Source: Betaproteobacteria bacterium | GTDB taxonomy: Bacteria > Pseudomonadota > Gammaproteobacteria > Burkholderiales > JAHFQX01 | DNA length: 63,301 nucleotides | Assembly (NCBI GenBank): GCA_023259135.1 | Contig: JAHFQX010000013.1 | Span: 1-63,301, forward strand | Direction of reading: 5' to 3' | Shown: positions 7,385 through 20,402 of the stretch, in pieces | How positions within the stretch are numbered: position 1 is the stretch's first letter | Layout: each line of letters starts with the position of its first letter | The notes under the pieces: model-generated | Told to the model about the DNA's origin: nothing | Seen by the model: only the letters and a program-made list of their open reading frames with translations | The model's database searches: none | Position numbers and translations under genes: made by a program

Positions 7385-8029
7385 CTATCGGCGGCCTGCC
7401 GCCCTCAGGCGGGGGAAGAACGCTGGCGTCCTGGCCGCATAGGCCGCGTACTCTTCCCCGAACTCCGCCGCAGCGTCTTTTTCCTCGGCCCGGGCCAGGC
7501 GCGCATACATCCACGCCAGCACCGGGAACATGGCGAGCGTCACCAAGGTCGGCCATTGCAGCAGGAAACCGAACATGATGATCACGAAAGCCGCGTACTG
7601 GGGGTGACGGATCCGGGCATAGGGCCCGCCGCTGGCCAGGGCGTGCCGGCGCTGGGCCTGGTAGAGCGCCTTCCAGGCGTTGGCGAGCAGGATGAAGCCG
7701 GCCACGATGAGGATATTGCTGAGGATGTGAAAGGGGCCGAAATGAGGATTGGATTTCCAGCCGAACAGGGTTTCCAGCAAGTGGCCCGCATCGTGGGCGA
7801 AGAAGTCGATGCCCGGAAAGCGCCGGCCCAGCCAGCCCGACAGCAGGTAAATGGTCAGGGGGAAACCGTACATTTCGGTGAACAGCGCCACCAGAAATGC
7901 CGAGAAAGCGCCGAAAGAGCGCCAATCGCGGGGGGTCTGGGGTTTGGCGAAGCTGAAGGCGAAGACGACGAAGATCAAGGAGTTGATGATCACCAAGCCC
8001 CATAGCCCATAGGCAGGCGCATCGTTCAT
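7385..8029 (-). CDS. isoprenylcysteine carboxyl methyltransferase (ICMT) family membrane protein
   Basis: A 214-residue integral membrane protein with about five hydrophobic segments and the C-terminal ICMT/PEMT signature [21 protein letters not shown] followed by an E-EYAAY-RT segment that binds S-adenosylmethionine in this superfamily. Bacterial members methylate unknown substrates; they are recurrent in copper and mercury resistance clusters. Its ATG overlaps the stop of the DUF2933 gene (ATGA), which points to translational coupling. No damage is seen. Confidence 0.8.
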
Positions 8030-8283
8030 TTCCGCTCTCCCTCGGAAGGTTTTCTGTCCCGAGCCTTGTCGTTGCGGGCGGTGTCATGGTTCCCGTGCCC
8101 CCCATGCATGAACAGATGCATGAGCGGGCAGGCGAGCAGCAGCAGGTAGGGCAGGATCCCCAGCACGTGGGCCCGGTGCTCGGTGAACAGGAAGAAGCCG
8201 GCTACGGCGAGGAAACCAATCAGCACCCAGTTGGCCTTGAGCCTGAACCGGCGGTTGTCGTTGGCATCGTGGTCATGGGTCAT
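8026..8283 (-). CDS. DUF2933 domain-containing small membrane protein
   Basis: An 85-residue protein: His/Asp-rich cytosolic N-terminus (MTHDHDANDN), two hydrophobic segments (about 18-34 and 43-60), then MHLFMHGGHGNHD, a His/Met-rich tail that could bind metal. It matches the DUF2933 family, which is common in copper and silver resistance islands. The stop overlaps the next gene's start by 4 nt. Function is unknown. Confidence 0.8.
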   Translation of the reverse strand: MTHDHDANDNRRFRLKANWVLIGFLAVAGFFLFTEHRAHVLGILPYLLLLACPLMHLFMHGGHGNHDTARNDKARDRKPSEGERK

Positions 8284-8776: not shown

Positions 8777-11434
8777 TTAACTCCTTGAGGGTTTGAAATA
8801 GCGCAGGCGGTTGGCGTTGCTGACCACTGTCACCGAGCTGAAGGCCATGGCCGCCGCGGCAATCAGCGGCGACAGCAGTAGCCCGAAAAACGGATACAGC
8901 AGGCCCATGGCGACCGGGATGCCCAGCACGTTATAGAAGAAAGCGCCGAACAGGTTCTGCTGGACGTTCCTCATGGTGGCTCGGCTGATCTCGATGGCGG
9001 TGGCTACGCCGGTGAGGCTGCCCTTGATGAGGGTGATGTCGCTGGCCTCGATGGCCACGTCGGTGCCGGTGCCGATGGCCAGGCCGACATTGGCCTGGGC
9101 CAGCGCCGGCGCGTCGTTGATGCCGTCGCCCACCATGGCCACGGTCTTGCCTTCCAGTTGGAGTTTCTGGATCTCGTGGGCCTTATCCTGGGGCAGCACT
9201 TCGGCCAGCACCCGGTCCACGCCGACCTGGCGGGCGATGGCATGGGCGGTCCGATGGTTGTCGCCGGTGAGCATGATGACTTCCAGGCCGATGGCCTTGA
9301 GCCGGGCAATGGCGGCCTGGGAATCGGGCTTGACGGTGTCCGCCACCGCCACCAGCCCGGCGGCCCGCCCGTCCACGGCGACAAACATGGGGGTCTTGCC
9401 CCCCTCGGCGAGGCGGTCCCAGTGGCCGGTGAGTTCCGTGAGAGCGATGCCGCGCTCGGCCATCAGCCTGGCGTTGCCCAGGATGACCGGCCGGCCATCG
9501 ATTTTTCCTTCGACGCCGTGGCCGGGAATCGCCGAGAAATCCCGAGTGTCCGACAGGCTCAGGCCACGGGCTTGGGCACCGCCGACGATGGCCTCGCCCA
9601 GGGGGTGTTCCGAGCCCCGTTCCAGGGAAGCGGCAAGGCGCAGCACGTCGGATTCATCGAACCCCGCCGCCGGAATCACGTCGGTGAGCTGGGGCTCGCC
9701 GCGGGTGATGGTGCCGGTCTTGTCGAGCACGATGGCATCGAGCCGCTTCGCGGTCTGCAGAGCGTCGCCGGAACGGATCAGGATGCCATTCTCGGCGCCC
9801 TTGCCGATGCCCACGGTGAGGGAAGTGGGGGTGGCGAGGCCGAGGGCGCAGGGGCAGGCGATAATTAGCGTGGTTACCAGCACGATGGTGGCGTAGATGA
9901 TGCGCGGCTCGGGGCCGAAGTCATACCATGCCACAAAGGCGAGCAGGGCGAGGATCATCACCGCCGGCACGAAGTAGCCCGACACTGCGTCCACCACCCG
10001 CTGGATCGGCGCCTTCGATCCCTGGGCGTCTTGCACCATGCGGATGATGTTGGCCAGCGCCGTGTCCTTGCCCACCTTGGTGGCCCGGAAGCGGAAGCTC
10101 CCGGTCTTGTTGAGCGTCGCGCCGATGACTTCGTCGCCGGGATGTTTTTCCACCGGCACCGACTCTCCGGTGATCATGGATTCGTCCACGGCGCTGCCGC
10201 CTTCGATCACTTCGCCGTCCACCGGGATCTTTTCTCCGGGGCGCACCACCACGGTGTCGCCCGCCAGCACTTCCTCCACCGGCAAATCCATTTCCTTGCC
10301 GTCGCGGATCACTCGGGCGGTCTTGGCTTGCAGGCCGACGAGCTTGCGAATCGCCTCCGAGGTCCTGCCCTTGGCCTTGACCTCCAGCGCCAGCCCCAGG
10401 ACGACGAGGGCGACCACCACCGTGGTGACATCCCAGAACACCTCCGCCAGGGCCGGATCGGGGAACAGCTCGGGAAACGCCACCGCCACCACCGAGTACA
10501 GGAATGCCGCGCTGATACCCAGGGCAATGAGGGTATGCATGTTGGCCGAACGATGCTTGAGCCCCTCCACCATGCCGGTGAAGAACTGCGATCCGGACCA
10601 GACCATCACCGGTACGGCGAGCAGCCCGAGCAGCGCCCACACCGTGCGGCGCTCGATGCTTCCCATGGGCATCCAATCGCGTAGCCCCGGAATTAAATCG
10701 GGATAACTGAATAGCATGACCGGCGCGGATATCAGTGCGGCAAACCAGAACTTGCGCATGAGCGTGCGGTATTCGCGAGCCTGCTCCGCGTCCTGGGAGC
10801 TAACGCCGGTTTCGGTCGAAGCGGGCGCGTCGGTTGCCTGGTAGCCGGCGGATTTAATGGCGCGGTGCAGGGCGGCGTGGTCGGTTGTCTTGGGCTGGTA
10901 AATGATATCCGCGGTGGCCGAAGCCGGATTGACCGTCGCCGATACCACGCCCGGGGCTTGTTGAAGGGCCTTTTCGACTTGGGTCACGCAGGAAGCGCAG
11001 CTCATGCCTTTGATGCCGAGCCGCAGCGTCGCCGTATCCGGCAGATAGCCGGTGCGCCGGATCGCCTCATGCAACCGGGCGAGGGAAGTGACCTCGGGAC
11101 GAAATTCCACGTGAGCGGTGGCGGCGCTCAAATTGACCGACGCCCGCAGGACGCCCTCATGCTGTTGCAGCGCTTGCTCGATCTTATGGGCGCAGTGGGG
11201 GCAGGTCATGCCGCCGATGGCGATGCTGGCGTGCTCGGTGTCGGAACTCTGCGGCAGGCTTTCGGCTGGAGCAACCGCGACGTATGCCCCAGGATCGGCG
11301 TCGAACTTGGCATGACAATCGTGGGAGCAGAAGTAATAGGTCGTTCCCCGGTACGCCGTGGTTGCCGCGGCTTTCTCGGATTCGACAGGCATCCCGCACA
11401 CGGGGTCGGTAACAGAAGCAGAAGTGTTGTTCAT
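8777..11434 (-). CDS. copA: copper-exporting P1B-type ATPase
   Basis: An 885-residue Cu(I)-translocating P-type ATPase of the inner membrane. In order: an N-terminal YHS-type metal-binding module (DPVCGMPV at 9-16, FCSHDC near 35-40), two heavy-metal-associated domains with GMTCPHC (75-81) and GMSCASC (143-149), a membrane region with the ion-channel CPC motif ([13 protein letters not shown]), the phosphorylation loop DKTGTIT, and the hinge [10 protein letters not shown]. The ATG at 11434 is supported by AAAGGGA upstream; the frame extends further but without homology. Fusion of a YHS/TRASH-like zinc/copper module to CopA is a known variant. It sits between an HD-GYP gene and the cupredoxin gene. 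Confidence 0.95.
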
Positions 11435-11466
11435 CGAATCGAATCCCTTTCTTTGTCCAAAGATCG

Positions 11467-12330
11467 TTAAAGCGATGTCTCGTGACACTTGAGATCGACC
11501 ATCTGCCGCAGCGTGGTCTCCTCGGCAAGGAATGCCTCCACCGCATGGGGATCGAATTGGGTGCCCGACAGGCGCAGAATTTCCGCCTTGGCTGCGTCGT
11601 AGCCGCGGGCCTTGCGGTAGGGCCGGTCGGAGGTCATGGCGTCCAGCGTGTCGATGATGGCGAACAGGCGGGCCCCCAGCGGAATGGCGCCCCCGGCAAG
11701 GCCGTGGGGATAGCCGGTACCGTCATGGCGTTCCTGGTGGCTGAGGATTATTTCAGCCGCCGCGCCCATTTCGGGAATCTCCGATACGACGCGGTAACCG
11801 GTTTCCGGGTGGGTTCGCATGACGGCCCATTCTTCGGGGGTCAGTGGGCCTGGCTTCAGCAGGATCGCGTCGGGTATGGCGATTTTGCCGATGTCGTGGA
11901 GCAGCGCGCCGAAATGGATCTGCCGCAGCACGGCCAGGTCTCGGCTGAAATGCCGCGCCAGCACCAGGGTATGGCAGGCCACCCGTTTCGAGTGCAGTCC
12001 GGTCTCCCGTTCCCTGGCGTCGAGCAGCTCCGCCAGCATCTCGGCGAAAGCCGAGTTGGTTTCGTCCCCGGTGGCCGATTCTGGTGGCCCTTCAGTGGCT
12101 ATTGTTTCTGGGCTACTGGTGGCCGATTCTGGTGGCCCTTCAGTGGCTATTGTTTCTGGGCTATCGGCGGCGGACGATGGGGCGAATCGAATGCGTGTCA
12201 GAAAACACGCCTCGCAGCAATCGTGTTCCCCGCTGCGCGCGAACACCGGAGAATCGATGGGACGGCAGCACAGTTGGCAGACCCGTGACGGGCCTTGTCC
12301 ATGGGCTTGGGTATGAAGGCGGCCGTTCAT
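11467..12330 (-). CDS. HD-GYP domain protein with zinc-ribbon N-terminus and 16-aa repeats
   Basis: A 287-residue putative cyclic-di-GMP phosphodiesterase. The N-terminus has Cys pairs (VCQLCCRP and CCEACF) that look like a zinc ribbon. Residues about 55-87 hold two copies of [15 protein letters not shown], encoded by a 48-bp tandem repeat. The C-terminal HD-GYP domain carries [35 protein letters not shown] and [12 protein letters not shown], so the metal-binding and GYP motifs are present. It begins 4 nt after the previous gene and ends 32 nt before copA. A c-di-GMP enzyme inside a copper operon suggests that metal status affects surface behaviour, which is inference. Confidence 0.88.
12071..12166. 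repeat. 48-bp tandem repeat (two units) inside the HD-GYP gene
   Basis: Unit one is 12071-12118 and unit two 12119-12166; the first 45 bases are identical. The length is a multiple of three, so the repeat adds 16 residues in frame. A related stretch (GTGGCCCTT-AGT-GCTATTG) occurs near 21991 in another gene of the island and also reads IAT-x-GP. Confidence 0.9.
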
Positions 12331-12733: not shown

Positions 12734-13165
12734 TTATTTGGCGGACATGGACGGATTTTGCTGTTCCAGCATGTGCTCCATCATCATCTGCATCATGTCC
12801 ATGCGCTGTTGCATGGCTTCGGGCGACATGCCCGGCCCGCCCCTGGGACCGCCCATCATGCCCCCGCCGCCGGGACCGCGACCCATCATCATCCCCATCG
12901 TGCCCATGCCTTCCCGCATGGTTTTCCAGTGTTCCTCCGAAAGCTTCTGGCGCTCCTTGGGGTCCTTGGCCTGGCGGATCTTCTCCATCTGCTCCCGCAT
13001 TTTTTTATACCGGGCCTGCATATCGCCGTAGAGCTTGTCCATGTCCATGGGCGCGGCGGCGCCGGGCGCCGGCTTCTTCTCCGCCCTGGGGGCGGTTTGG
13101 GACAGGGCGTAGGGCGCGCCCAGGGCAAGCGTGGCCAGGGTGGTGTAAAGCGCAAGCTTTTTCAT
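12734..13165 (-). CDS. Met-rich periplasmic protein (putative copper buffer)
   Basis: A 143-residue exported protein with a signal peptide (MKKLALYTTLATLALGAPYALS). The mature part is helical and charged (YKKMREQMEKIRQAKDPKERQKL), followed by a Gly/Met-rich segment (GTMGMMMGRGPGGGGMMGG) and a terminal Met-rich helix (QQRMDMMQMMMEHMLEQQ). Methionine clusters are typical Cu(I) ligands in the periplasm. The ATG at 13165 is preceded by AAAGGA at good spacing. It shares DPKERQKL and the Met-rich plan with the next gene, so the two are probably old paralogues. No named family was recognised. Confidence 0.75.
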   Translation of the reverse strand: MKKLALYTTLATLALGAPYALSQTAPRAEKKPAPGAAAPMDMDKLYGDMQARYKKMREQMEKIRQAKDPKERQKLSEEHWKTMREGMGTMGMMMGRGPGGGGMMGGPRGGPGMSPEAMQQRMDMMQMMMEHMLEQQNPSMSAK

Positions 13166-13393
13166 GATGGTTTTTCCTTTCGGGTTGATGAAACAAAGCG
13201 ACCGTCCGAATCGGCGGAGGTTTGGAAAGCTTGAGGATTCAGTTCGCCACCCGACTGCTGCGGAAAGGCTACTCCCCGCGACATGAAACGGTTTTTGATC
13301 TGGGCCAAACATGCCCGCCATCCGGAACCGGTCCCGTGTCGCATGCCCGGAAAGCAGGCGCCCGATCTCTCTCCGGTTGATTGAAAAACGCGG

Positions 13394-13894
13394 TTACTTG
13401 GCCGGCGTGGGCTGACCCTGGGACTTCATCAGTTGGTCCAGCGTCATCTGCATCATATCCATGCGCTTTTCCATCGTTGCATGGTGTTTCATCATGTCGC
13501 CCATCATTTCTCCCCCCATCATGCCGCCACCTGGGGCGCCGCCCATCATGGCCATGCAGTCCTGGGGTCCTTCCATCATCATCGCTTGATTGGCCGCCAT
13601 CATGCTTTCCCGCATGGTTTGCATGTGCTCCCGCAGCAGTTTCTGGCGCTCCTTGGGGTCCCTGGATTGGGCGATTTTCTCCGCCTGGGCTTGCAGTTTT
13701 CGGGTGTTGTCCTTCAGTTTCCGCGCCGCCTTGTCGGCCTTGGCCGAGGGGGCGGAGATGGCTTTCTGAGCGGCGGGAACGCCCTGGGTGGCGCCGGTTT
13801 GCTGTTCGGGATGGTGCTCCTCGACCGCCGATGCGGAAGCAGGCGCGCCAAGCGCCAGGGCGGTGAGGACCGCGATCCATGGAGTCTTATTCAT
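13394..13894 (-). CDS. Met-rich periplasmic protein, paralogue
   Basis: A 166-residue exported protein. Signal peptide MNKTPWIAVLTALALGAPASASA, then a coiled-coil-prone charged region (KADKAARKLKDNTRKLQAQ), DPKERQKLLREHMQTM, a Met-rich block (ANQAMMMEGPQDCMAMMGG, GGEMMGDMMKHH) and a last helix (EKRMDMMQMTLDQLMK). The ATG at 13894 is chosen over the in-frame ATG at 13903 because the AAAGGA ribosome site abuts the latter but sits 9 nt before the former. With its paralogue downstream it would form a periplasmic copper-binding pair; this is inferred from composition and context. Confidence 0.75.
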   Translation of the reverse strand: MNKTPWIAVLTALALGAPASASAVEEHHPEQQTGATQGVPAAQKAISAPSAKADKAARKLKDNTRKLQAQAEKIAQSRDPKERQKLLREHMQTMRESMMAANQAMMMEGPQDCMAMMGGAPGGGMMGGEMMGDMMKHHATMEKRMDMMQMTLDQLMKSQGQPTPAK

Positions 13895-14029
13895 GGCTTT
13901 CATTCCTTTCTGCTTGAGTTGAAAAATAGCCGTGGAGGGGATCTGGCACGGGACGGCATGGCTGGCCGTCGGCATAGTCCGAGCCATGGCGTTTGCTGGT
14001 GTCTGGCCCCGTGCGAAAACCCATCCGTT

Positions 14030-14290
14030 TCATTTTGTCCCGTTACTTGCGAAGCGATCGTTAGAGTCTATTCCTTCCGAGCCCTCCGGTGTTGCGGAAT
14101 CGGCCGGGGACGGGGTCTTCCGCCGCTGGGCGATCCCAATCACCGCGGCCAGCAGCAGGAAAATCAGTGAACCCCAGCCCCACACATGGGCGTATCCCGG
14201 CATGGCGAACAGGGGCACGGTGGCGTAGGCGAGCGCCAGCGCTGCCCATACCGCGAACACGATGACGAGCAATGCGATGTCTTCTTTCAT
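14030..14290 (-). CDS. small two-helix membrane protein
   Basis: An 86-residue protein with two hydrophobic segments (about 6-27 and 38-56) and a polar Ser/Asp-rich C-terminus. No family was recognised. It lies 13 nt downstream of the oxidase-like subunit I gene on the same strand, so it could be an accessory subunit of that complex; small one- or two-helix subunits are usual in ba3-type oxidases. That role is inferred only from position. Confidence 0.65.
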   Translation of the reverse strand: MKEDIALLVIVFAVWAALALAYATVPLFAMPGYAHVWGWGSLIFLLLAAVIGIAQRRKTPSPADSATPEGSEGIDSNDRFASNGTK

Positions 14291-14303: not shown

Positions 14304-15962
14304 TTAGTGCCCGCCGGGTTCCCCGGCCGCTTCGAAGGGCAGGGCTTGGATCATCTCGAAGGCGAGCGCGGTGAACAGCGCCATGGCGCCCACCAGGACG
14401 AGAATGGACAGCGGGCCAATCCAGACACGCACGGCCGGGGCAGTTCCCTTCCAATGCACCGCGGGCAGCATGCTCTCGCCGGACGGGGAAACGGGAAGCA
14501 GGGTGCGAAACAGCGCAAACAGGTAAACGAGCAGCGCCAGCGTCATGAGGGCGCCTCCGATCCCCACCCCGTTCATGAGCGTTGACCAGAGCATCGGCGC
14601 CTCACCGGAATAAGCGATGTCCAGCAGGCGCCGGGGAACGCCGAGGTAGCCGGCGGCGATGCCGGCGCCGCCGAAAAACACCAATCCGGCAGTGACCAGA
14701 TAGGGCAGCCGGGCCAGAAGCGGCGGGTTCCACAACGGTCGCCCGGCGATGGCGGGGATGATGTAGCACAAGATACCCAGGAAAGTGAGGGTCACGGTGC
14801 CGAGCGTGAGGAAATGGAAATACCCCGGCACGAAGAATGTGTCTGAAAGCAGGGGAGCGATCTTTTCCTGGATCAGCACGAAAGAGAAGGTCCCGCCCAG
14901 GGCGAGATTGACGACCGCCATGCCCATGGCCGCCATCGCCGGATTGCCCCAGGGCAGCATTCGGATCCAGCCGAACAGCCCCCGCGCGCCATGGGCGCGG
15001 GCATGCGCTTCCAGGGAGGCCACGATCACCAGGAATACCATCACGGTCGGCACGCTGATGAACAGCGACAGCAGCGATCCGATCACTCGCACCGGCTCGG
15101 CCAGGTTGGGTTCCAGGAACATGTGGTAGAGAGACGTGGGCGGCACGAAGATGAGGTAGAGGGCGAACACGATCTTCGAGAACCGAGCGCCGAAGATGGA
15201 CTTCACGCCGGATACGGTCTCCATCAGCACGGTCCACACCAGCACGGTGGCCATGAGCGGCAGATAGTGCATGTTGTGGAACAGGATGTGCCATCCGGTC
15301 GAGTATTCGGCCGGCAGCGGCGCCAGGCCCAGGGCCCAGCGGGCCGCGGGGAAGAACGCATAGACGGCCGCCACGCTGCTGACCATCAGCAGCCCGGCCC
15401 AGGCCACGCTGGCGAAGCTCACCACGGGCCAAGTGGAAATCCTGCCGGCGAAGCGGGGCCTGAGCGCCGTGGCAACGCCCGCGACGGCGACGCAGAACAG
15501 CCCGGCGGCGAGCAGGAGGTAGCCCAGGTAGAAAGCCGCTACCGCGGGGGAGGGGGTTCCCGCCAGTTCCGGCGGCGCGTCGTAGAGCAGCGGAAGGCCG
15601 CTCCATACCGCGTATCCGCTCGACAAGAAGCCCGTGAACATCAGGGCCAGGCCGGCCCACGCCAGGGCGCGCCAAGCGATGCGCCCGCCCTTCACGGTGG
15701 ATACCGCGCCGAACACCAGCAGCAGTCCGACCTGGGCGAAGTAAAGCCAGTAGAAAAAGATGTTGACCCCGTGCAGCGTCATCGACCGGTAGCCGTTGAG
15801 CGGAATCATTTCGATGAAGCCGGCGCGGGCAAAGGCGGTGGCTGCGCCGAACACCACGCCCACCGCGAGCGCCAGCAGGGCCGCGCCGAAGCAAAGCTTG
15901 AGCAACAGCTTGTCGCCGGCCGGCAGGGCCTTAAGACCTTCAGTGAGGCGGGGCGGATTCAT
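14304..15962 (-). CDS. divergent ba3-type heme-copper oxidase subunit I homologue
   Basis: A 552-residue polytopic protein aligning along most of its length with ba3 cytochrome oxidase subunit I (family landmarks GLFGWIRMLPWGNPA and LGVPRRLLDIAY). Low-spin heme ligands are kept: MTLHGVN and the second His of VPGYFHF. In the active site, FHNMHY keeps the His and Tyr of the GHPIVY motif, but FHHQFADP has become YHMFLEP (first Cu(B) His to Tyr) and VPGHFH has become VPGYFH (high-spin heme His to Tyr). The ATG at 15962 begins MNPPRLTEGLK, overlapping the subunit II gene. Normal O2 reduction is doubtful; NO chemistry, electron storage or a copper-linked role are alternatives. Confidence 0.85.
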   Translation of the reverse strand: MNPPRLTEGLKALPAGDKLLLKLCFGAALLALAVGVVFGAATAFARAGFIEMIPLNGYRSMTLHGVNIFFYWLYFAQVGLLLVFGAVSTVKGGRIAWRALAWAGLALMFTGFLSSGYAVWSGLPLLYDAPPELAGTPSPAVAAFYLGYLLLAAGLFCVAVAGVATALRPRFAGRISTWPVVSFASVAWAGLLMVSSVAAVYAFFPAARWALGLAPLPAEYSTGWHILFHNMHYLPLMATVLVWTVLMETVSGVKSIFGARFSKIVFALYLIFVPPTSLYHMFLEPNLAEPVRVIGSLLSLFISVPTVMVFLVIVASLEAHARAHGARGLFGWIRMLPWGNPAMAAMGMAVVNLALGGTFSFVLIQEKIAPLLSDTFFVPGYFHFLTLGTVTLTFLGILCYIIPAIAGRPLWNPPLLARLPYLVTAGLVFFGGAGIAAGYLGVPRRLLDIAYSGEAPMLWSTLMNGVGIGGALMTLALLVYLFALFRTLLPVSPSGESMLPAVHWKGTAPAVRVWIGPLSILVLVGAMALFTALAFEMIQALPFEAAGEPGGH

Positions 15963-16704
15963 GGCTGGACTCTGGGTTCCGGGATTCGGTGACGATGATC
16001 TTGCCTTGCATGCGGTCATGGGCCAAGCCGCAGTACACGGTGCAATAGAGCAGGTATTCCCCCGGGCGCGTGAATTTCAGTTGCTGCTCGACCAAGGTCT
16101 TGGGCCGCAGCCGGGTGATGCGGCTGGCATCGCCGAGATGAAACGATGCGCCGTGGGTGGTGTCCACCGCCATCATGCGGAAGCGGTAGGGCACGTTGGC
16201 TTCCAGCCGCAGCACCGCGGGCTTGTAGCCCCACTGGTAGGCCATGAGATAGACCTCCACCGCTTTGCCTTCCGCATGGTCCGTCGCCGGCTGATCGGCG
16301 GCCGATGGGCTCTCGGCGCCGTGACCCGCCCCGTGCATTCCATTTTCAGCGGCTCCCCCGCCGGCGGTGGGTTCCGGCCCGCCATGGGTGCCATGTCCGG
16401 CCATTGCCGGGGATGCCATGGCCATGGGGCCCGGCCGCACGCTGCCGTCGGGGAGTTGGTTGGCTGCGATGAACTGCTCGACCCGGCGCTTGAATTCTTC
16501 GACGTCCGGCCCGCCGTCCCGGACCTCGTGTCCCCCGTGGCTGCCGCCGCTCGCTTCCGGCTCGACGCCGGCGGCCAGCAGGTTGAGCGGCACGGCCCCA
16601 TAGGCGGCCCACAAACCATAGAGCCCCACCACACCGAATCCCGCGGCGGCGATAAAGCCGCGCCGGGTGGTGAAATGGGGTTTTCCGTCGGGATGTTCGC
16701 TCAT
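15940..16704 (-). CDS. cytochrome c oxidase subunit II-like Cu(A) protein with Tat-like anchor
   Basis: A 254-residue protein. Residues about 10-35 carry a twin-arginine-like signal/anchor (HFTTRRGFIAAAGFGVVG). A long His/Gly/Met-rich linker follows (for example GHGTHGGPEPTAGG), then a cupredoxin Cu(A) domain with the upstream His (TTHGASFHL) and CTVYCGLAHDRM, giving Cys, Cys, His and Met ligands; the site looks complete. The ATG at 16704 follows GGAAAG. Its 3' end overlaps the start of the subunit I gene by 23 nt. It should pass electrons from a periplasmic donor to subunit I. The His-rich linker is unusual and may bind extra copper. Confidence 0.85.
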   Translation of the reverse strand: MSEHPDGKPHFTTRRGFIAAAGFGVVGLYGLWAAYGAVPLNLLAAGVEPEASGGSHGGHEVRDGGPDVEEFKRRVEQFIAANQLPDGSVRPGPMAMASPAMAGHGTHGGPEPTAGGGAAENGMHGAGHGAESPSAADQPATDHAEGKAVEVYLMAYQWGYKPAVLRLEANVPYRFRMMAVDTTHGASFHLGDASRITRLRPKTLVEQQLKFTRPGEYLLYCTVYCGLAHDRMQGKIIVTESRNPESSHESAPPH

Positions 16705-16759: not shown

Positions 16760-17203
16760 TCACTGATGTCCGCCCACGTGGCCGGCGCCGGGGGCGAACC
16801 GCGCCTGAACCGCGGATTGTCCCGGAAAAGTGACCGATACCGCCACCGTGGTGTCCGCGCCGATTTGAAATTTTCCGGTTCCCTTGAGCACGTTCTGCCC
16901 CGCCGAGGCGAGCCGCACGGTTTCCTTGGCCTTGCCGGAGAGCACCGTGGCGCTGCCCGAGACGCCTTGGGTTTCCACCCGCTTGCCGCCGGGGCCCAGC
17001 ACGTAGATCGTAAGCTCGTTGGACTGCGCCACCAACTCGAAATGGTAGGGACCGGCGTCCTGTACCTGCCCGCCGTGGTGGGCGGGGATGGAATCCGCCC
17101 AGGCTTCCGGCCCGGCCAGGAGGGATAAAGCGAATGGCCCGGAAGCAGAAGCGGCCACCAGGGCCAAGGCAAGGCCGAGTTTGCGCAGTGTTAAGTTGGG
17201 CAT
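16760..17203 (-). CDS. exported heavy-metal-cluster protein (adaptor-like beta domain)
   Basis: A 147-residue protein with a signal peptide (residues 1 to about 36, ending EAWADS). The mature part starts IPAHHGGQVQDAGPYHFELV, which resembles the periplasmic metal-binding domain found at the N-terminus of some CzcB/CusB adaptors, followed by beta-rich sequence and a His-containing tail (GHVGGHQ). It lies 31 nt downstream of the CusA-type pump gene and upstream of the Cu(A) protein gene. A periplasmic metal-binding accessory to the efflux pump is the best guess. Confidence 0.65.
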   Translation of the reverse strand: MPNLTLRKLGLALALVAASASGPFALSLLAGPEAWADSIPAHHGGQVQDAGPYHFELVAQSNELTIYVLGPGGKRVETQGVSGSATVLSGKAKETVRLASAGQNVLKGTGKFQIGADTTVAVSVTFPGQSAVQARFAPGAGHVGGHQ

Positions 17204-17234: not shown

Positions 17235-20200
17235 TCAGAAGGTATGCCGTTCGTGCAGCGCCAGCAACCGTTTCAGCGGCGGCTCGCCCCACAGGGAGAA
17301 CATGAGCGGCGTGAGCAGGGTATCGAGGAGGGTGGAACTGACCAGTCCGCCGAAGATCACCACGGCTACCGGGTGCAAAATTTCCTTGCCCGGCTCGCCG
17401 GCCGCCACCATTAGCGGCACCAGGGCGAAGGCCGCCACCAACGCGGTCATCAGCACCGGCGTCAACCGTTCCAGGGAGCCGCGGATGATCATCTTTTTGC
17501 CGAAGCGCTCGCCCTCGAAGGTCACCAAGTTGATGTAATGGCTTATTTTGAGAATCCCGTTGCGGGTGGAAATGCCGGCCAGCGTGATGAAGCCGATGAG
17601 GGAGGCCACCGACAGGGGCTGTCCGGAGAGCCACAGGGCGATCACGCTGCCCACCAGGGCCAGCGGGATGTTGCCCATGATCATCAGCGACAGCACGGCG
17701 GAACGGTAGCGGCTGTAGAGCACCAGGAAGATCATCGCAAGCGACACCAGCGACAGCCAGGTGATGAGTTGGGTGGCTTCTTCCTGGGCTTGGAACTGGC
17801 CTTCCAGGCTGGTGAAATAGCCTTCCGGCAGAGGGTGCGCGGCAAGGTCGGCGCGGATTTTTTGAATGATCTCCGCCATATCCCGGCCATCGGTGTTGGC
17901 CAGCAGCACGATGCGGCGGCGCCCGTTGTCGCGGCTGATCTGGTTGGGGCCCACCGCGTCCTCGATGCTGGCGATGTGGGACACCGGGACGCGTCCGCCG
18001 GGCGTTTCGATGAGCAGGCTGGAAAGGCCGTGCTGGGAGCGGTCGTGCTCCGGGACGCGCAGCACCACGTCGAAGCGGCGGTTGCCGTCGATGATCTGGG
18101 AAATTTCCTCGCCGCGGATCAAGGTCTGCAGGGCGTCCAGCACCGCGCCCGGCGTGACCCCGTAGGCCGCGGCGCGGCTGTAGTCGAGGCGCACCTGCTG
18201 TTGGGGGATGAGCACCTGCTTCTCGATTTGCAGATCCACCAATCCCGGAATCCCGGCCAGGCGGGTTCTCATCCCTTCCGCCAGCCCCCGCAGGGTGTCC
18301 AGGTCGTCGCCGTAAATCTTCAGGGCGATTTGCGCGCGCACCCCGGAGAGCAGGTGGTCGAGCCGGTGGGAAATGGGCTGGCCGATGCCGATGACCGCGG
18401 GGAGCACGGCGAGCTGGTCGCGCAGCTCCCGCATGATGGCTTCGCGGCTGCGTTCGGAGCGCTTCAGGTCCACGTCGATCTCGCTGGAGTGGACCCCTTC
18501 CGCGTGCTCGTCCAGTTCGGCGCGGCCGGTGCGGCGGCCTACCTTGATGACCTCGGGCACCCCCATGATGAGCTGTTCCGCCATGCTGCCCACCCGGTTG
18601 GACTCGGACAGCGAGGTCCCCGGATTGAGCAGCAGGCTGATGGTGAAGGTGCCCTCGTTGAACGGCGGCAGGAAGGAGCGGGCAAAGAACGGCACGCTGG
18701 CGATGGCCAGCGCCACCGCCGCCAGCGCGCCGCCCAGCAATAGTCTGGGGTGCTCGAAGGACCACTCGAGGAGCCGGGTGTCCCACTGCTTGAGCTTTCG
18801 CACCAGGGGGCTGTATTCCTCCCCGTGGCCGCCGGCGCCGCGGCCGGGGAGGAATCTCCAGCGCCGCCGGGACGGGCCAGGGTCATGGGCCGCCGCGACC
18901 GAGGGCAGCAGGTAGTAGCACAGCACCGGTGTCACCGTCACCGAAATCAGCATGCTGGCCAGGATCGAAATGATGAAGGCGGTGCCCAGCGGCGCGAACA
19001 GCCGGCCCTCGATGCCAGAGAGGGTGAACAGCGGCACGAACACCAGCACGATGATGATGGTGGCGTAGACGATTCCCGACAGCACTTCCTTGGTGGCGGC
19101 GGCGATGACGGGAATGGCGGGCTTGGGGTGCTCCGCCGCGGCGTTCAGCCTGAGCCGCCGCAGGATGTTCTCCATGCCGACGATGGCATCGTCCACCAGG
19201 GCGCCGATGGCGATGGCGAGGCCGCCCAGGGTCATGGTGTTGATGGACAGGCCGAAGTAGCGGAACACCAGGGCCGCCACCAGAATGGAGAGCGGAATGG
19301 CAGTCAGCGAAATCAGGGTGGTGCGGACATTGAGCAGGAACAGGAACAGCACCACCGCCACCATGAGGGCCCCGTCGCGCAGCGCCTCCTCCACGTTGCT
19401 GATCGAGTGGTCGATGAAGTCCGCTTGCTTGAACAGAATTTCCGGCGCCGCCATGCCCGTTGGCAGGCTTTTGCCGAGGTCCGCCAGGGACTTCTCGATT
19501 TCCGCGGTGAGCTTCACCGTATCGGCTCCGGGCTGTTTCTGCACCGACATGATCACCGCGGGCCGGGCCTTGAAGCTGGCATCCCCGCGCTTCTGCCGGG
19601 CGGCGAAATCCACCTGGGCGATCTGCTTGAGCAGAATGGGCTGGCCTTTCGCGTAGCCGACCACCACTTCCCGCAAGTCTTCGAGGCGCGTGGTGCGGCC
19701 GATATGGCGGATCAGGTATTCCTTGGCGCCGGCATCGAGGAAGCCGCCGCTGGTGTTGGCGGCGAAGTTCTTCAGGGACTTCTCCAGATCGTCCAGCGCC
19801 ACGCCGACGTCTTCCATCTTGAGCACGTCGGGCGTCACCTGGTATTGCTTGACCTCGCCGCCGATGGTGATGACCTGGGACACGCCGGAGACGGTGAGCA
19901 GCCGCGGCCGCAGCACCCAGTCGGCGTACTCCCGCACTTGCATCGGGCTGATCCGGGACGGGTCGCCCTGCAGGGCCACCAGCATGATCTCGCCCATGAT
20001 GGAGGAGATTGGACCCATCTGGGGAGTCACGCCTTCGGGGAGCTGCTCCTTCACCAGCCCCATGCGCTCGGCGACCTGCTGGCGGTTGAGATAGATGTCG
20101 GTGCCCCAGTCGAACTCCACGAACACGATGGCGAGCCCCACGCCGGAGACGGAGCGCACCCGGGTTACGCCCGGCATGCCGTTCATGGCGGTCTCGATGG

Positions 20201-20402
20201 GAAAGGTGACGAGCTGCTCGACTTCCTCCGGAGCCATCCCTTCGGCCTCGGTCATCAAAGTGACGGTGGGCTTGTTGAGATCGGGGAACACGTCCACCGG
20301 CATCTGCTTCAGGGTGAGGGCGCCGTATACCACCAGCAGCAGCGACACGGCCATCACCAGCAGCCGCTGCCTCAGGCTGGAATCGATGATCGCATTGAAC
20401 AT
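17235..20402 (-). CDS. CusA/CzcA family heavy-metal RND efflux pump
   Basis: A 1055-residue inner-membrane proton-driven transporter of the heavy-metal-efflux RND family. It starts MFNAIIDSSLRQRLLVMAVS, with the first porter domain (QMPVDVFPDLNKPTVTLMTEA, EEVEQLVTFPIETAMNG), TM4 with AIGALVDDAIVGMENILRRL (the Asp/Glu proton-relay region), and a second half containing RSFLPPFNEGTFTISLLL and SHYINLVTFEGE. Length is normal. Whether it exports Cu(I)/Ag(I) or divalent ions cannot be settled from the motifs; the copper context favours Cu(I). It lies 9 nt downstream of the adaptor gene and shares an operon with it and the TolC-type gene. Confidence 0.93.
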   Translation of the reverse strand: MFNAIIDSSLRQRLLVMAVSLLLVVYGALTLKQMPVDVFPDLNKPTVTLMTEAEGMAPEEVEQLVTFPIETAMNGMPGVTRVRSVSGVGLAIVFVEFDWGTDIYLNRQQVAERMGLVKEQLPEGVTPQMGPISSIMGEIMLVALQGDPSRISPMQVREYADWVLRPRLLTVSGVSQVITIGGEVKQYQVTPDVLKMEDVGVALDDLEKSLKNFAANTSGGFLDAGAKEYLIRHIGRTTRLEDLREVVVGYAKGQPILLKQIAQVDFAARQKRGDASFKARPAVIMSVQKQPGADTVKLTAEIEKSLADLGKSLPTGMAAPEILFKQADFIDHSISNVEEALRDGALMVAVVLFLFLLNVRTTLISLTAIPLSILVAALVFRYFGLSINTMTLGGLAIAIGALVDDAIVGMENILRRLRLNAAAEHPKPAIPVIAAATKEVLSGIVYATIIIVLVFVPLFTLSGIEGRLFAPLGTAFIISILASMLISVTVTPVLCYYLLPSVAAAHDPGPSRRRWRFLPGRGAGGHGEEYSPLVRKLKQWDTRLLEWSFEHPRLLLGGALAAVALAIASVPFFARSFLPPFNEGTFTISLLLNPGTSLSESNRVGSMAEQLIMGVPEVIKVGRRTGRAELDEHAEGVHSSEIDVDLKRSERSREAIMRELRDQLAVLPAVIGIGQPISHRLDHLLSGVRAQIALKIYGDDLDTLRGLAEGMRTRLAGIPGLVDLQIEKQVLIPQQQVRLDYSRAAAYGVTPGAVLDALQTLIRGEEISQIIDGNRRFDVVLRVPEHDRSQHGLSSLLIETPGGRVPVSHIASIEDAVGPNQISRDNGRRRIVLLANTDGRDMAEIIQKIRADLAAHPLPEGYFTSLEGQFQAQEEATQLITWLSLVSLAMIFLVLYSRYRSAVLSLMIMGNIPLALVGSVIALWLSGQPLSVASLIGFITLAGISTRNGILKISHYINLVTFEGERFGKKMIIRGSLERLTPVLMTALVAAFALVPLMVAAGEPGKEILHPVAVVIFGGLVSSTLLDTLLTPLMFSLWGEPPLKRLLALHERHTF

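Follow-up and report, generated by a model that had tools for sequence, protein, structure and literature searches.

Proteobacterial relatives of ba3-type oxidases with tyrosine at two metal-ligand positions of the heme-copper site

The proximal histidine of the high-spin heme and the pair of CuB histidines are treated as defining for the heme-copper superfamily. Other proteins, e.g., catalases, are well known to use tyrosine as a heme ligand, and a heme ligated by phenolate has a low potential. In the ba3 oxidase of Thermus thermophilus, the K-path includes Tyr244, Tyr248, Thr302, Ser309 and Thr312. The described eNOR is marked by an active-site glutamine and has a cupredoxin-type subunit II (PMC8756737).

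We found a heme-copper oxidase relative in which two metal ligands are replaced by tyrosine. The gene (Table 1) is in a stretch of 63,301 nucleotides from a Betaproteobacteria bacterium, referred to here as the window. An ORF check showed that it is read from 15962 down to 14304; the plus strand of the same interval (14304-15962) had no open frame. The first-pass annotation of this gene was right about both His-to-Tyr changes, as judged from the ba3 alignment and the codons, and had to be corrected as to the strand. The encoded protein has a full-length COX1 fold (Pfam COX1, 1.5e-32). Its best PDB matches were all T. thermophilus ba3 subunit I (phmmer, E ~6e-29), and its only close solved relatives were B-type oxidases, foremost T. 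thermophilus ba3, in agreement with the likeness to ba3 subunit I noticed at first. No NCBIfam model scored above its own cut-off, so the protein has no curated name. A search of the open-access literature found no description of such a double-tyrosine variant. As far as we found there, this protein and its relatives (here called YY) are a previously unnamed group of respiratory-oxidase relatives.

Table 1. Features of the window, with ba3 residues numbered as in T. thermophilus
Feature	Positions	Strand	Remarks
YY subunit I-like gene	14304..15962	minus	552 aa; heme-copper oxidase relative with Tyr279 and Tyr381
Tyr279 codon TAC	15126..15128	minus	replaces first CuB His (ba3 His282)
Tyr381 codon TAT	14820..14822	minus	replaces proximal high-spin heme His (ba3 His384)
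HNMHY	15264..15278	minus	His229 = ba3 His233; His232 = ba3 Val236; Tyr233 = ba3 Tyr237
His280 codon CAC	15123..15125	minus	remaining His of CuB pair (ba3 His283)
His64 codon CAC	15771..15773	minus	low-spin heme ligand (ba3 His72)
His383 codon CAT	14814..14816	minus	low-spin heme ligand (ba3 His386)
Subunit II	15940..16704	minus	CuA cupredoxin domain; 23-bp overlap with start of subunit I
p86	14030..14290	minus	third gene of conserved module; small protein, two apparent transmembrane helices
147-aa putative exported protein	16760..17203	minus	no family; common only to nearest relatives L008, L055
RND efflux pump (CusA-like)	17235..20402	minus	ACR_tran 3.5e-254; lineage-specific neighbor
Two adjacent Met-rich putative exported proteins	12734-13321, 13394-13987	minus	without Pfam family
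Copper P-type ATPase	8777..11488	minus	HMA and YHS domains; lineage-specific neighbor
DUF2933 protein beside ICMT-like methyltransferase	7385-8283	minus	

The two substitutions were found throughout the family. In the phmmer alignment with ba3, YHMFLEP paired with HHQFADP, VPGYFH with VPGHFH, and FHNMHY with GHPIVY, all without gaps. Tyrosine had been proposed at the first His of the CuB pair and at the high-spin heme ligand, with the low-spin heme ligands and the His and Tyr of the GHPIVY motif retained. Each of these assignments held in all full-length family members: Tyr279 and Tyr381 were present in 39/39, as were His64 and His383, and His229 and Tyr233. Further codons read directly were those of His229 (CAC), His232 (CAC) and Tyr233 (TAT). 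Because both tyrosines occur in 39/39 proteins, they reflect neither chance nor sequencing error. B-type oxidases are recognized by three CuB histidines, the proximal histidine of the high-spin heme and an active-site tyrosine on helix VI; the YY proteins have Tyr279 and Tyr381 in place of histidines and retain the tyrosine (Tyr233), each in 39/39.

We also found a histidine specific to the clade. His232 was invariant, present in every YY member and in none of the other heme-copper oxidases in the alignment (0/81), and could possibly substitute for one lost CuB ligand. We considered whether other histidines stand in at both tyrosine positions and rejected this, as the motifs are gap-free and only His232 is both nearby and invariant. 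His232, the small third gene (p86) and the residues lost near the high-spin heme (see below) go beyond the first-pass annotation.

The family is spread over three classes. Among 300 genomes of the same order there was only one further close relative (75% identity). We then scanned ~85,000 species genomes for the peptides IFFYWLY and LFHNMHY, taken from a two-sequence alignment. This gave 41 YY loci in Alpha-, Beta- and Gammaproteobacteria, a lower bound because divergent members without these peptides would escape the scan. Tyr279 and Tyr381 lie outside both peptides, and their conservation is therefore not a product of the scan. Three more copies (54-55% identical) were found in plasmid records of Azospirillum. 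The lowest pairwise identity among the 39 full-length proteins aligned was 40%. All 39 have a histidine as the last or near-last residue (14307-14309 in the window), expected on the periplasmic side.

The old active site is the best-kept region of the protein, unlike a relic; for this reason above all we think that the old site still has a role. Among the 39 proteins 96 positions were invariant, including His64, His229, His232, Tyr233, Tyr279, His280, Tyr381, His383, Arg444 and Arg445. Invariant positions made up 47 of 113 around the old site versus 49 of 439 elsewhere (p ~2e-12). Values of dN/dS were 0.11-0.23 in 12 of 13 YY pairs; the outlier (0.48) came from a pair of very low divergence. 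These ratios, well below 1, indicate that the family is under strong purifying selection and, together with the tyrosines in 39/39, bear out the earlier suggestion of altered chemistry instead of decay.

It had been proposed that a monophyletic group sharing both tyrosines would support a distinct family. When the ligand columns were left out of the tree, the YY proteins fell into one such clade (support 100/100), whose stem is very long, at 2.3-2.7 changes per site. This clade grouped with proteins that have a glutamine at the active-site tyrosine position (99/95), and ba3-type proteins joined next. Since that glutamine is the eNOR mark in PMC8756737, we call the latter group eNOR-like; the tree was made without a named reference eNOR. 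The glutamine was present in 58 eNOR-like rows, where YY proteins have Tyr233, and the two groups were separate clades (100/100 each). The eNOR-like proteins are probably the sister group, as judged from this tree. An AU test did not reject a clade of YY and ba3 (p 0.149), and with the long stem this makes the sister group likely rather than settled. Among the other heme-copper oxidase sequences fetched that cover both sites, none had tyrosine at both, and among the sequences fetched we saw no B-type-like intermediates with tyrosine at one of the two. Assignment to cNOR or qNOR did not fit either: the active-site position is Tyr, not Glu, and the nearest relatives are B-type. Separately, we noted an eNOR-like, Q-type protein encoded on a T. 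thermophilus plasmid (L098, NZ_AP025614, 967-2652) with VVGHFK at the expected low-spin heme His; its gene adjoins those for an Rrf2 regulator and a DUF542 protein.

We found that the low-spin heme site is kept and the high-spin heme pocket is altered. Of the positions common to eNOR-like, ba3 and A-type proteins, YY proteins retain those of the low-spin heme and the propionate arginines (the RR pair, invariant in 39/39). In the pocket, Gly360 is replaced by Ser or Ala, Asn/Asp369 by Ala, and T128, Y130 and P132 of the TxYxP loop are altered; His373 is replaced by Ser, which is also present in many A-type rows. Polar residues specific to YY, besides the two tyrosines, are Gln77, Tyr148, Trp188, Asn230, His232, Lys263, Asn352, Gln365 and Met473. 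Tyr381, the changes at Gly360 and Asn/Asp369, and the loss of T128 and Y130 argue against a classical high-spin heme, and from these residues we judge such a heme more likely absent from its classical position than present. Part of the K-path is retained: ba3 Tyr248 corresponds to YY Tyr244 (39/40), Thr302 to Ser299 and Ser309 to Thr306. The counterparts of ba3 Tyr244 and Thr312 are not retained. In the protein from the window, position 244 is Thr, in contrast to the Tyr of 39/40.

An AlphaFold2 model had a COX1 fold (pLDDT 83.7, pTM 0.88), and Foldseek placed ba3 structures on top (E 1.5e-17, TM-score 0.78). With an rmsd near 7.7 and a pLDDT of ~67-82 over helices VI-VIII, the model does not allow the site's geometry to be read.

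Subunit I is encoded within a three-gene module (CuA subunit II, subunit I, p86) that is conserved across proteobacterial classes. The genes overlap or nearly touch in the window, suggesting a single transcript. The gene for subunit II was directly upstream of that for subunit I in 42/42 loci examined. Subunit II contains an N-terminal helix with RR, a linker enriched in His and Met, a conserved helix with an LPDGSV motif, and the CuA domain; most members share this His/Met enrichment of the linker. All five CuA ligands (His184, Cys221, Cys225, His229 and Met232 in the window) were present in 43/43 sequences, in keeping with the complete CuA subunit II first described for this locus. In profile searches ba3 CuA structures came first (9e-15) and N2O reductase matched more weakly. 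A p86-type gene was downstream of subunit I in most loci, and Asp4, Trp15, Tyr22, Trp37, Gly38, Gly40 and Phe44 were conserved in 34/34 aligned copies. The p86-type gene is tandemly duplicated in Gammaproteobacteria (L069-L075). In five loci (L058, L062, L066, L068, L095) a gene for a monoheme c-type cytochrome was within ~2 kb.

Copper genes adjoin the module in some lineages. In the window the module is flanked by a copper-type RND efflux system on one side and a CopA-type ATPase on the other, and the copper-efflux neighbors reported at first are real (RND pump, CusB-like protein, OEP, CopA ATPase, DUF2933). They are not a general rule. Of the 37 loci with flanks of 6 kb or more, 7 had copper genes, to which the window and Azospirillum are added; the copper-flanked modules are those of several Betaproteobacteria, Gemmobacter/Pseudotabrizicola and Azospirillum. 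With copper-efflux neighbors at about a fifth of loci, the copper link is lineage-specific, and we rejected a copper function as typical of the whole family. We likewise rejected a link to denitrification or NO through neighbors, finding no neighbor genes consistent across loci. Non-copper neighbors vary by lineage: one Gammaproteobacterial locus has genes for NrfD, ferredoxin and a multiheme cytochrome, one locus has NapC, and a few have U32-type genes, some of them read as putative UbiU. Relatives of the two Met-rich exported proteins were also near the module in L008, L055, L057 and L060, and the DUF2933/ICMT-like pair was beside it in L057, L060 and Azospirillum L104.

FNR-type boxes (TTGATNNNNATCAA), perfect or with one mismatch, were upstream of subunit II in L068, L077, L079 and L095, i.e., in one Alphaproteobacterial subclade only. 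These four sites with at most one mismatch compare with 0.1 expected in all loci. In YY loci an NnrR-type pattern occurred at chance level only and a RegA-type pattern little above chance.

Other heme-copper oxidase genes were present in the window's own genome and in 9 of the 10 YY genomes checked; the tenth, a MAG of 2.3 Mb, may be incomplete. The YY complex is therefore unlikely to be the main oxidase. The window's genome also encodes a second COX1-like protein (L005, G000:C61:6844-8046) that lacks the CuB HH pair (VPVIYLAYP) and retains the heme His (PAHYH). Its gene is ~5 kb from an eNOR-like gene, and weak COX1 matches with similar spacing were found in three more YY genomes (G1026:C93, G1027:C6, G1028:C13). 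This second protein had no NCBIfam or PDB match.

Our preferred reading, which we hold to be evenly poised between right and wrong, is that YY proteins are a distinct functional family of heme-copper oxidase relatives, with electron input through CuA and heme b and non-O2 redox chemistry at a rebuilt Tyr/His site. CuA would be reduced from the periplasm, by a copper protein or a c-type cytochrome, and electrons would pass through low-spin heme b to the old binuclear site. Rebuilt from His229, His232 and His280 with Tyr233, Tyr279 and Tyr381, that site would still bind metal, with one copper as the likeliest case, and act on a compound other than O2; candidates are NO, peroxide and copper itself. 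Protons could arrive by a K-path-like route (Tyr244, Ser299, Thr306). A functional, rebuilt site is likely, going by the sequence comparisons above. With a little less than even confidence, we suggest that non-heme copper-tyrosine, or copper with a Tyr-ligated heme, replaces the heme-copper centre and supports a CuA-driven reaction new to the superfamily.

It is possible, though we doubt it, that the complex only transfers electrons. Its catalytic site would have been lost and filled in, leaving CuA and low-spin heme b to link periplasmic donors (cytochrome c or, where copper genes adjoin, Cu(I)) with a partner such as quinone; during copper stress without oxygen, the complex could serve as a cuprous oxidase that needs no O2. 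In favor of this, the ligands of CuA and of the low-spin heme are all kept, the two catalytic ligands and a number of pocket residues are gone, and the lost heme-pocket residues fit a metal-free site equally well. The His/Met-enriched linker in many members, the copper neighbors in Betaproteobacteria, Rhodobacterales and Azospirillum, and the FNR-type boxes of one Alphaproteobacterial subclade are also consistent with electron transfer. However, an abandoned site should drift, and this one is the most conserved region, with a new invariant histidine and K-path residues. In addition, no quinone site was identified in YY, and copper genes are absent from most loci.

We consider it unlikely that Tyr381 is a phenolate ligand of a high-spin heme, as in catalases, opposite a copper held by two or three histidines (with Tyr279), in an enzyme that would handle peroxide or NO driven by CuA. 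Tyr381 is exactly at the proximal position, tyrosine serves as a heme ligand elsewhere, His229, His280 and His232 could still bind copper, and the clade groups with eNOR-like proteins. In contrast, Gly360, Asn/Asp369, T128 and Y130, conserved in groups with a high-spin heme, are altered, and the low potential of a phenolate-ligated heme poorly suits a CuA/heme-b donor.

It is highly improbable that YY is an ordinary oxygen reductase of the B type whose unusual ligands do the work of the usual ones. Tyr233, several K-path positions and the overall ba3 fold are retained, and His232 could replace one lost ligand, but nothing replaces the high-spin heme histidine, and nearly all of the hosts checked have other heme-copper oxidases; two metal-binding histidines that are always tyrosine in effect exclude O2 reduction of the ordinary kind. 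A single genome lacking two essential ligands could be taken for a non-functional relic or a sequencing artefact. For the family this is refuted by the two tyrosines in 39/39 proteins of many independent genomes, dN/dS well below 1 and an intact three-gene module, and we give it next to no weight.

The YY clade is a natural experiment in re-purposing the heme-copper oxidase fold, with electron input retained and tyrosine fixed at two ligands. Proteins matching COX1 may be annotated as terminal oxidases without having the active site of such an enzyme. Cultured strains carry YY proteins (Azospirillum brasilense, Gemmobacter megaterium DSM 26375), which opens the question to direct experiment.

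Compared with known systems, YY is most like T. thermophilus ba3 in its COX1 fold, low-spin heme ligands, counterparts of His233 and His283, active-site tyrosine, RR pair, CuA subunit II and part of the K-path. It differs in having tyrosine for the first CuB His and the proximal high-spin heme His, an extra invariant histidine (His232), altered Gly360, Asn/Asp369 and His373 positions, a long subunit II linker, and a small third gene without known family. Catalase-type proteins with a Tyr-ligated heme resemble YY by analogy only, in tyrosine as a possible heme ligand; their fold is unrelated, and Tyr381 as a heme ligand is hypothetical. The eNOR-like proteins are the likely sister clade, and described eNOR shares a cupredoxin-type subunit II (PMC8756737). 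They retain the heme and CuB histidines and have Gln in place of the tyrosine, whereas YY proteins have the tyrosine and have lost two of the histidines.
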